A stretch of 64,000 bases of DNA from Sulfurospirillum sp. UCH001. Its GTDB lineage: Bacteria > Campylobacterota > Campylobacteria > Campylobacterales > Sulfurospirillaceae. The notes under the pieces were generated by a model that was given only the letters and a program-made list of their open reading frames with translations, searched no databases and was not told the origin of the DNA. The stretch spans positions 62,001 to 126,000 of the forward strand of contig NZ_AP014723.1 of assembly GCF_001548035.1 (NCBI RefSeq). The letters run 5' to 3'. Of this stretch, positions 60,978-64,000 are shown in pieces. The translations under genes and the position numbers were made by a program. The number at the start of each line of letters is the position of its first letter. The first letter of the stretch is position 1.

Positions 60978-62348
60978 TTATGGTTGAATATCACTTTTTT
61001 TAGGATAGATAAAAATTGTTTGACGATCAACAATAATTTTATCTTTTGCATCTGTAGCAAAAGCCTTAATAGTAATCGGAAGATCTTCGCCTTCTACTTT
61101 AAGCTCTTTTGGAATAGAAGAAAGAATGACTACTTTTTTTACTTTTTCTCCTGCTTTTAGTAAGAAAGGCTCATTTGGCTTATCAATTTTTATATCGTTA
61201 TTTGAGACTTCAAAGTAATAAAGGTGATCTTTTGTATCGGTATTTTGGAATAAGAAAGTATATACATTCTCAACAGTTTTGCCATCATCAGCCATTTTAT
61301 ATAATTGACTTGTACGATTAATGTTCAAAAGCATATATTCTTTTTGAGTTCCCATTGCAAAAAGACCAATGAGCGCTATGGTCAGGGCAACCATATAAGC
61401 GATTGTTCTGAAACGAAAATATTCTGTTGGTGTTCCTTTTTCTGCTGCATTTGAACTTGTCCACGTAATCAATGAAGGTTTACCAAGTTTTTCCATAACA
61501 GGAGTACATGCATCGGCACATTCTAAACAGTTAATACATTCTAATTGCATACCTTTACGAATATCGATATGTGTAGGGCATACACGAACACAAGCTTCAC
61601 AACCTGTACAGTCATCTGTTGCTAGAGGAGGTTTACTACCAAGTTTTACACCTTTAGCATCGTAGATTTTACCTCCGCGTTTTTCATCATAGATCGTTTG
61701 AATAGTGTTTTCATCGAAAAGTGCAGATTGTATACGTGCATAAGGGCAAATATAAACACAAAAATTTTCTTTCAGCGAAACAATGTCATAGACTAAAAAG
61801 CCAGTAATACAAATCAAAAAGCCATACATTACACTGTTTTCAAGAGGATCTTTTAGATAAACAAAAAAATCTTCAGGCGGAATGAAATACCATAAGAAGT
61901 TAGATGCTGCTAGAAAGGCCAATGCTGCCCAAATAAGAACAGCAAGAACACGTTTACCTAGTTGACCATCTTCTGGTTCTTTCTGTTTATTATTGATGCT
62001 TTTACGAATTCTTAAAAGTTTAGTTTGAATAAGATCACGAAAAATGACTCTAAAGATTGTTTGCGGGCATGACCATCCACACCAAACGCGACCACCAAGT
62101 GTCGTAATAAAAAAGATACTTAAGAAAAAGAGCATAATGACAAAAGGCATTAAATAGAGCTCTTGCATATCAAAGGTTGTGAAAAGAAGATGGAGCTGTT
62201 TTTTATCAAAACTGAGTAAAAAGAAATGATTTCCTTCGATACGAATAAATGGCAATATAAGAGCAATAAGCGTAATAATGCCAAAACTAATGTAACGTTT
62301 CGGCCTATAATAAGTAGGCTGAACAGAACAATTGCTATTACAATTCAT
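60978..62348 (-). CDS. ccoG: Cytochrome c oxidase accessory protein CcoG (FixG)
   Basis: This 456-residue membrane-bound iron-sulfur protein has five or so transmembrane helices, a WCGWSCPQT motif, a YICPYAR motif and two [4Fe-4S] clusters (CTGCEACVRVCP and CINCLECADACTP), ending in an Ig-like periplasmic domain. In other bacteria CcoG assists copper delivery for cbb3 oxidase assembly. The ccoNOPQ genes are not in this window. It overlaps the upstream recombinase-like gene by 11 bases. Confidence 0.93.
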   Translation of the reverse strand: MNCNSNCSVQPTYYRPKRYISFGIITLIALILPFIRIEGNHFFLLSFDKKQLHLLFTTFDMQELYLMPFVIMLFFLSIFFITTLGGRVWCGWSCPQTIFRVIFRDLIQTKLLRIRKSINNKQKEPEDGQLGKRVLAVLIWAALAFLAASNFLWYFIPPEDFFVYLKDPLENSVMYGFLICITGFLVYDIVSLKENFCVYICPYARIQSALFDENTIQTIYDEKRGGKIYDAKGVKLGSKPPLATDDCTGCEACVRVCPTHIDIRKGMQLECINCLECADACTPVMEKLGKPSLITWTSSNAAEKGTPTEYFRFRTIAYMVALTIALIGLFAMGTQKEYMLLNINRTSQLYKMADDGKTVENVYTFLFQNTDTKDHLYYFEVSNNDIKIDKPNEPFLLKAGEKVKKVVILSSIPKELKVEGEDLPITIKAFATDAKDKIIVDRQTIFIYPKKSDIQP

Positions 62349-63036
62349 GATGTATTCCTTCTATATGATCTGTTGGTTGTTTAATGAGTGAGCACTCTTT
62401 TGCAACATTAGATTTAGTAGTTATTAATGGTTGTTTATGAGTCGATTGAAGTAGATTGATTTTTGCTTTGACAAGCTCTTTAAGGCCTCTTGAGTTGACG
62501 TAATCTTTTAAAGAAGTACGACTGACTTGTAATATTTTCGCTATTTCACTGATAGAAGTGCGATTTTCAAGAAACTCAATAATTTGAGGACGATAGGCAT
62601 CAAATTTTGATTTTGACATTCGCCCTTTAGGTCTTCCTTGTGCTTTTTCTTTATCTAACTTTTTGTTCAATTCTCTTTGTTTGACAAGAAGTTCAAGAAG
62701 CACTAGTGGTTTTGATTCAACATGAATGCAGACGTTGACATCAGCAATATGAACCGAAATAGAACGTTTGAGTAAACATTCAAAGACTTTAACTAACTCT
62801 TCAACATTGTTTGAAAACGTAAGAAGATCAAAGATAATCACATGATCATGTTTTGAAAGAGATCGTAGAAAACCTTTAAATTCTTTGCGCTCTTCAAGTT
62901 CAAGCGTAGGATCAGAGTTTTCAATCTCTGTCGTATCTATCTTGAGATCATGATGATGTGCGTATTTTAAAATCTGTTTCTGCTGAACGATGATTGGAGC
63001 ATTATCGCTTCTGCTTTTTAAAAGGACAATATTCAT
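62338..63036 (-). CDS. Serine-recombinase-like DNA-binding protein with degenerate active site (probable regulator)
   Basis: This 232-residue protein has an N-terminal resolvase/invertase fold and a C-terminal Hin-type helix-turn-helix (residues 148-186, ISEIAKILQVSRTSLKDYV) with a basic GRPKGRMSKSK linker. The catalytic L-D-R-L-G-R-S motif is replaced by LLTFSNN at 71-77, and the N-terminal R-V-S is KSRSD, so it should not recombine DNA. It is co-transcribed with ccoG and has an inverted repeat over its own promoter, suggesting an autoregulated transcription factor for ccoG or respiratory genes. Confidence 0.8.
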   Translation of the reverse strand: MNIVLLKSRSDNAPIIVQQKQILKYAHHHDLKIDTTEIENSDPTLELEERKEFKGFLRSLSKHDHVIIFDLLTFSNNVEELVKVFECLLKRSISVHIADVNVCIHVESKPLVLLELLVKQRELNKKLDKEKAQGRPKGRMSKSKFDAYRPQIIEFLENRTSISEIAKILQVSRTSLKDYVNSRGLKELVKAKINLLQSTHKQPLITTKSNVAKECSLIKQPTDHIEGIHHEL

Positions 63037-63071
63037 AAAAATGTCACCTTTTTATCATTTTGATAAATAGA

Positions 63072-63127
63072 AGTATACAGATATTGACGTAGAAAGTCAA
63101 TATTAAATTACATTTTTACGTCAATAT
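63072..63127 (-). promoter_or_regulatory. Promoter and palindromic operator of the recombinase-like regulator
   Basis: On the minus strand, TTGACT (63095-63100) and TATACT (63072-63077) form a -35/-10 pair with 17-bp spacing. An 11-bp perfect inverted repeat, ATATTGACGTA (63081-63091) and TACGTCAATAT (63117-63127), has one arm in the spacer and the other upstream of -35. A third half-site (AGTCAATAT) overlaps -35. Confidence 0.7.
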
Positions 63128-63238: not shown

Positions 63239-63451
63239 ATGCCAGGAATTAAAGTACATCCTAACGATTCATTTGATGAAGCGTATAGAAAGTTTAAAAA
63301 ACAAGTTGATCGTAACCTAGTTGTAACGGAAGTGCGTGCAAGACGTTTCTATGAAACAGCAACAGAAAAACGCAAAAAAGATAAAATTAGTGCGCGCAAA
63401 AAACAGTTGAAAAGACTTTATATGCTTCGCCGTTACGAGTCGAGACTCTAA
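63239..63451 (+). CDS. rpsU: 30S ribosomal protein S21
   Basis: This 70-residue basic protein has the S21 start [20 protein letters not shown] and closing RRYESRL. The ribosome site is GGTGG. Confidence 0.96.
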
Positions 63452-63585: not shown

Positions 63586-64000
63586 ATGGATAAAAAACTA
63601 ACGGTTATTGAGGCGGCAAAACTTTTAGGTGTGAGTAAAGAGGCTATCTACAATCGTTTGCGAAGAGGCTCCTTACAAAGTGTTATCGAGAATGGTGTCA
63701 AGTACATTTTACTAACAAAAAGCAGTCTAAAAGAAGGACCATCTGCACGCAAAATTGAACATGCTACCAATGAAAGTGCTTATGTAGAACTCTTAAAGAT
63801 TCAGCTTGAAGAGATGAAGCTAAAGAATGAAAAATTAGAAGCAGACAAAGAGCGTCTCATTGCCGATAAAGAACGTCTACTCATTGAATCTAAAGAAAAA
63901 ATAGAGATGATTTATAAAGAAAGAGATGAACAGCTTAAAGCGATTTTGTCACTTGCAAATAGACAAATAACACATACCAATAGTGAGACGATGACATCTT
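63586..64000 (+). CDS. HTH and coiled-coil DNA-binding protein (truncated by window end)
   Basis: The frame is open from the ATG at 63586 (after AAAAGGG) to the window edge, 138 residues. Residues 5-50 form an excisionase/MerR-type helix-turn-helix (LTVIEAAKLLGVSKEAIYNRL) with a wing. Residues 65-125 form a charged coiled coil with a short internal repeat (ADKERL twice). The fold suggests a DNA-binding oligomer. The biological role is unknown. Confidence 0.7.
   Translation, partial: MDKKLTVIEAAKLLGVSKEAIYNRLRRGSLQSVIENGVKYILLTKSSLKEGPSARKIEHATNESAYVELLKIQLEEMKLKNEKLEADKERLIADKERLLIESKEKIEMIYKERDEQLKAILSLANRQITHTNSETMTS

Follow-up and report, generated by a model that had tools for sequence, protein, structure and literature searches.

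The resolvase TnpR of Tn3 is known to repress its own promoter at res (PMC7157771). Persulfide-sensing repressors of a different kind, SqrR/BigR of the ArsR family and CstR of the CsoR family, have sulfide-oxidation-type targets, and SqrR and CstR sense by means of two conserved thiols (PMC9774590). CcoG, in turn, is the cupric reductase in cbb3 oxidase assembly, and deletion of ccoG halves the oxidase activity of Campylobacter jejuni (PMC8267372). No recombinase-type regulator is mentioned in a 2019 review of respiratory regulation, and our literature search for a domesticated serine recombinase acting as a transcription factor, or for the present gene beside ccoG, found nothing relevant. Here we describe such a gene, which we call REC, in a window of 64,000 nucleotides (the whole stretch of DNA that was analysed) from the one-contig, 2.6-Mb genome of Sulfurospirillum sp. 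UCH001. In our reading, to which we give a probability of roughly 0.85, an early domestication in the Campylobacterales turned a serine recombinase of the resolvase/invertase fold into REC, a dedicated repressor of the operon that it heads and, elsewhere in the order, of an oxidase and sulfur regulon.

REC is a resolvase-like ORF of 232 aa (ORF list and translation) and the first gene of its operon. The genes of the locus and the protein features of REC are as follows.

60978..62348, minus strand: ccoG, the operon's second gene, cupric reductase for cbb3 oxidase assembly (ORF, TIGR02745 over cutoff, conserved adjacency)
62338..63036, minus strand: REC, predicted serine-recombinase-like regulator without catalytic residues (ORF, Pfam Resolvase, Foldseek, orthologs)
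62713..63036, minus strand: Resolvase-fold N-terminal domain, residues 1-108, active-site residues gone (Pfam, alignment, AF2 model, Foldseek)
62806..62826, minus strand: LLTFSNN, residues 71-77, at the position of L-D-R-L-G-R-S (alignment to the active paralog L002 and others)
62776..62778, minus strand: codon of Cys87, near-invariant, 56/58 orthologs (ortholog alignment; also in named loci)
62623..62637, minus strand: GRPKG hook, residues 134-138, expected minor-groove contact (ortholog alignment)
62491..62601, minus strand: helix-turn-helix, residues 146-182, the most conserved part of REC (Pfam, alignment, AF2 model)
62392..62394, minus strand: codon of Cys215, near-invariant (56/58), in the C-terminal tail, ECSL (ortholog alignment; named loci)
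63239..63451, plus strand: rpsU, divergent neighbour (ORF; neighbourhood in relatives)

With TnpR of Tn3 and gamma-delta, and also with Hin, Gin and Sin, REC shares the fold and the C-terminal helix-turn-helix. The first-pass annotation had proposed a recombinase fold with an intact helix-turn-helix for 62338-63127, and both proposals are upheld: beside the ORF itself, REC passes the Pfam Resolvase model PF00239 (24.9 bits, cutoff 23.3) and falls just under the cutoff for the resolvase HTH_7 (20.8 bits, cutoff 23.8). An AlphaFold2 model built from 36 orthologs has a mean pLDDT of 83.9, with helix-turn-helix helices at residues 146-157, 162-169 and 173-182 and low confidence in the C-terminal tail that carries C215. 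Its closest structures by Foldseek are of the gamma-delta, Tn3, Sin and Hin types, the best PDB matches being a gamma-delta/Hin chimaera and Tn3 resolvase (E 2e-7 to 5e-7), and Pfam and Foldseek pointed to resolvases alone, neither giving an ArsR or CsoR family fold. A sequence search of the PDB returned weak matches only, the best being a designed repeat protein (E 0.0013). The resolvase fold is thus a sound assignment despite the low sequence similarity.

What distinguishes REC from TnpR is the loss of the serine nucleophile and of the DR..R arginines, together with a shortened helix E. In an alignment of 58 REC orthologs and 10 recombinase paralogs, one of which (L002) is encoded in the window's genome too, L71-L-T-F-S-N-N77 takes the place of L-D-R-L-G-R-S, as the first-pass annotation had read it, and the loss of Asp and of both Arg that it noted extends to the family: Arg is found at neither the R68 nor the R71 position in any ortholog (0/58 each), and D67 is kept in 1/58. 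Missing from that annotation was a further loss, that of the catalytic Ser, which 0/58 orthologs have in the aligned column; R45 is kept in 5/58. About 13 residues of helix E, which the active paralogs keep, are absent from all REC orthologs, the R125 column is a gap in 58/58, and the model has at this position a single helix of 24 residues (110-133) rather than a long helix E. The alignment demonstrates that catalysis has been lost throughout the family, and REC would be unable to cut DNA. Conservation lies elsewhere: G134-R-P-x-G138, S141, S143, D146, R173, S175, D178, S182, R183 and L185 are invariant, so that most invariant positions fall in the GRPKG hook, where G, R, P and the final G are kept in 58/58 and K in 56/58, and in the helix-turn-helix. 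C87 and C215 were not found in the paralogs; the two orthologs that lack both, from family f18, carry a CEILC motif instead, and REC is not beside ccoG there. The paralog L002 (C1:1366218) resembles REC in its Resolvase domain and its GKPKG and helix-turn-helix region, at about 30% identity, and differs in keeping R7-V-S9 (YIRVS), RLGR and the full helix E. At 1471-2106 of its locus, it looks like an intact serine recombinase, and an integrase-type transposase ORF lies nearby.

Another difference from TnpR is that REC is chromosomal and vertically inherited beside ccoG. The operonic join of the two genes noticed at first reading proved correct, since the two ORFs overlap by 11 bp, from the ccoG start at 62348 to the REC end at 62338, which places the REC stop inside ccoG, and the adjacency is kept in relatives. 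A profile search at E <= 1e-20 found REC in 169/399 Campylobacterales genomes, which became about 157/399 after 12 weak matches near 1e-21 (families f9 and f14) had been set aside. Among the 80 best named loci, ccoG lies directly 3' of REC in 78, the other two meeting a contig end; in the first ortholog set the two genes adjoin in 55/58 loci. REC is placed away from ccoG in two f18 genomes, in one of them beside SCO1-like and PCuAC-like genes (by eye), and in G081 the gene downstream of REC is a divergent ccoG-like gene of 29% identity. REC similarity follows ccoG similarity with a Spearman coefficient of 0.70 over 139 loci, some of them mutual duplicates, and in a set of 100 genomes every genome with REC has ccoG and many ccoG genomes are without REC. 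Vertical inheritance with repeated loss would give such a distribution. In G024, G031 and G003 (L070, L071 and L069) stops interrupt REC or the gene is split, and in G024 and G031 ccoG is intact, pointing to recent losses of the regulator.

The promoter of REC on the minus strand is a good sigma-70 promoter, near consensus, and its elements are interleaved with those of a putative operator.

63117..63127, minus strand: operator half-site A, ATATTGACGTA on this strand (TACGTCAATAT as numbered), upstream of the -35 (sequence; relatives)
63081..63091, plus strand: operator half-site C, ATATTGACGTA, inverted, in the -35/-10 spacer (sequence; relatives)
63093..63103, minus strand: third half-site, imperfect, AAAGTCAATAT / ATATTGACTTT, overlapping the -35 (sequence)
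63095..63100, minus strand: -35 hexamer TTGACT (sequence; conserved in relatives)
63072..63077, minus strand: -10 hexamer TATACT, 17 bp from the -35 (sequence; conserved in relatives)
63085..63123, no strand: 39-bp operator core TGACG-N29-CGTCA (genome-unique at <=1 mismatch to the extended pattern)

The outer two half-sites are the perfect 11-bp inverted repeat described around the -35, and the third half-site reported on the -35 is present too, in imperfect form. By its sequence the repeat is more than chance, because TATTGACGTA is scarce genome-wide (3 copies in 2.6 Mb, two of them at the REC promoter) and the pair is unique at <=1 mismatch. The operator TGACGATAAA-N19-TTTATCGTCA recurs in REC promoters across the order, its arms being TGACGATAAA and the inverse of this, with starts 33-35 bp apart and variable DNA in between, and the same architecture of promoter and operator is kept down to about 32% identity of the REC protein. 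Exact-core pairs with a gap of 28-30 bp occur in 47/80 named REC promoters, and in 0/20 regions upstream of ccoG where the genome or the gene copy has no REC; Sulfurovum-type REC promoters have degenerate arms without exact cores, which the pattern search misses. The autoregulated look of the gene, already remarked on from the sequence, is thus reinforced by an operator that is kept in its own promoter along with the gene. The TTGAC at the -35 probably belongs to the promoter as such, which would leave the outer two as the conserved recognition arms. Two loci (L032 and L039) have, upstream of the main operator, extra direct TGACGA half-sites at intervals of about 20 bp, which suggests cooperative binding along one DNA face. 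In the REC-rpsU intergenic region of Sulfurospirillum-type loci (L004-L023) there is a second conserved element, TTACATGTAAGCTTAA, nearer rpsU, possibly the rpsU promoter region or a site of another regulator.

Like TnpR, REC would bind inverted half-sites that overlap its own promoter; its half-sites differ in lying 34 bp apart with no crossover site, and the shortening of helix E fits half-sites far wider apart than those of a crossover site. The half-site of res, which we take to be TGTCYGATAATT, resembles the REC half-site TGACGATAAAA in order and polarity, with TGAC outer and the A/T tract inner. Since the resolvase TnpR represses itself, autorepression by REC may be an ancestral trait that has outlasted catalysis.

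The regulon in relatives was sought with a deliberately strict site, TGACGAWWWA-N18-20-TWWWTCGTCA, in 399 Campylobacterales genomes. It has 36 copies in 25/399 genomes, and a control pattern has 0. All 25 of these genomes carry REC, vs about 157/399 overall (Fisher p 2e-11, without correction for phylogeny and so ignoring shared ancestry); with the count restricted to the 14 genomes that have a site elsewhere than in the REC promoter, p is 1.5e-6, shared ancestry again being ignored. Strict sites are seen in just 25 of the about 157 REC genomes. Fourteen of the 36 lie in REC promoters and 22 elsewhere, and every one of the 22 stands a short distance 5' of a gene start. The genes concerned are NifX-like genes (PF02579, some with His-rich tails), DUF4492-cydAB (DUF4492, then cydA), a small membrane protein of 65-72 aa, an SQR-like flavoprotein that is below NCBIfam cutoffs, rhodanese, SLAC1 and DUF6858, with f17/g71 supplying targets of both the SQR-like and the rhodanese kind. 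Of the families, f17, f18 and f6 have the widest regulon. When the pattern was loosened, three genomes from the family of the window also showed a site before NifX-like genes, and G067 one before DUF4492-cydA; the latter match had been held to be due to chance, an explanation that was dropped once the site was placed directly before DUF4492. Six NifX-like promoters share the geometry of the REC promoter, with TTGACT inside the site and the -10 downstream, at a 17-bp spacer in five, and in L261 the site stands 12 bp before the NifX ATG. In family f19 an operon reads REC-ccoG-NifX-like-small membrane protein-SQR-like flavoprotein (L247, L248 and L233), with DUF4492 next in L248; its small membrane protein has no Pfam match. 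Independent lineages therefore converge on one gene set. Both the co-occurrence of site and gene and the identity of the regulon are established at the level of sequence. The control of cbb3 assembly envisaged in the first-pass annotation agrees with the operator at REC-ccoG and proved too narrow for the relatives, in which the regulon takes in cytochrome bd, NifX-like, SQR-like and rhodanese genes.

For the window's own gene, a regulon of such breadth would be an extrapolation from these relatives. Genome-wide site scans, which were pattern searches, place a site with <=1 mismatch only at the REC-ccoG promoter. In the window's genome the strict pattern gave the REC promoter and one GC-rich chance site, nothing more, and TGACG-N28-30-CGYCA gave 8 forward matches vs 10 for the control, no signal beyond the REC promoter. 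A two-mismatch search gave 25 places vs 8 for the control; the only good half-site recognised among the 25 was rejected, being inside a helicase-like ORF. A single half-site near 1535415 has no partner that we could find, and no site was detected by eye or pattern search at the NifX-like gene of this genome (L243) or at most PF02579 genes in relatives. The recommended search for palindromes upstream of genes was hence rewarded in relatives and gave no second target in the window's genome, where REC looks like a one-operon regulator.

The domestication as a transcription factor proposed at first reading is well borne out by catalysis lost family-wide, by a helix-turn-helix and hook that are the most conserved parts and by an operator that tracks REC. 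We infer the DNA binding of REC, the sign of regulation, the geometry of the dimer and the signal from the same comparisons, as follows. A REC monomer would read one TGACGATAAA half-site, its helix-turn-helix contacting the outer TGACG and its GRPKG hook the A/T tract further in. A pair of molecules on inverted half-sites 34 bp apart would straddle the -35, one of them sitting in the -35/-10 spacer, and bound REC would exclude RNA polymerase, so that negative feedback would set the level of the REC-ccoG operon. The site would also control cydAB, NifX-like, SQR-like, rhodanese and related genes in other lineages. The ancestral job may have been to match terminal oxidases and their assembly to a signal of respiratory poison or metal supply, probably received by the two conserved cysteines.

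Repression is read from the promoter geometry, and one arm in the spacer is typical of repressors and compatible with an activator too. Activation of its own promoter, for example by a MerR-like distortion of the spacer, would accommodate an arm in the -35/-10 spacer with another upstream of the -35, as well as the upstream direct half-sites about 20 bp apart in some relatives; we consider it unlikely, because near-consensus -35 and -10 hexamers at the optimal 17-bp spacing need no activator, other targets (L261 among them) carry the site on the start site or RBS region, and the resolvase precedent is repression. That REC is an unused remnant, carried along by its position upstream of ccoG, would agree with the disappearance of every catalytic residue and with the broken copies in a few genomes (G024, G031), and is very improbable for a gene that is intact in many families with an invariant helix-turn-helix and a co-conserved operator, matching sites elsewhere being found solely in REC-bearing genomes. 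An active or decaying recombinase is ruled out by the residue loss, the vertical inheritance and the operator evidence together.

Within the preferred reading of REC as a repressor, the nature of the signal allows tentative ranking only. Reactive sulfur is placed first, as a possibility rather than an expectation, because a cell facing sulfide would have use for cytochrome bd, SQR and rhodanese, and possibly for a SLAC1-type anion exporter, and because SqrR and CstR sense through two conserved thiols. Regulon and cysteines together fit reactive sulfur at least as well as copper or oxygen. Cu(I) or another oxidant comes a close second. A REC that senses copper (or oxygen/redox), low copper or oxygen derepressing ccoG and the copper-free bd oxidase, is compatible with a repressor and a serious if uncertain candidate: it draws on the universal linkage to ccoG, given that CcoG is a cupric reductase (PMC8267372), on the His-rich tails of NifX-like targets, on the SCO1-like and PCuAC-like neighbours in f18 and on two Cys that could bind Cu(I). 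Against it, the SQR-like, rhodanese and SLAC1 targets are harder to account for, and known copper-binding motifs were not found. The full proposal, a once-only early conversion of a serine recombinase into a Cys-based reactive-sulfur sensor, acting as a repressor of genes for cbb3 assembly, cytochrome bd and sulfide handling and so playing the role of SqrR/BigR or CstR with an unrelated fold, is speculative. To those repressors the likeness would be functional only (a repressor, two conserved Cys, targets of the sulfide-oxidation type; PMC9774590), the REC targets featuring CcoG and cydAB and the thiol chemistry in REC being conjecture.

Profile searches label REC a recombinase, which hides a likely transcription factor common to much of a sulfur- and oxygen-cycling order. 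For Campylobacterota it would offer a candidate regulator of cytochrome bd and of the maturation of cbb3, with a defined operator and regulon, and an example of a mobile-element enzyme turned housekeeping switch, in which ancestral autorepression may have been retained and catalysis dropped. A second degenerate recombinase, of Arcobacter type (L060-L063, family f9), has likewise lost the catalytic Ser and one Arg of the conserved two and holds a fixed chromosomal place at ubiX-rplI, with ubiX as neighbour in 4/4 loci and rplI in 3/4. It differs from REC in keeping the long helix E and one Arg, in its neighbourhood and in its TGTATAA-like upstream repeats, and is perhaps an independent domestication. 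Beyond rpsU, an ORF at 63586-63999 runs off the end of the window, with an excisionase-like helix-turn-helix start followed by a long charged, coiled-coil-like region.
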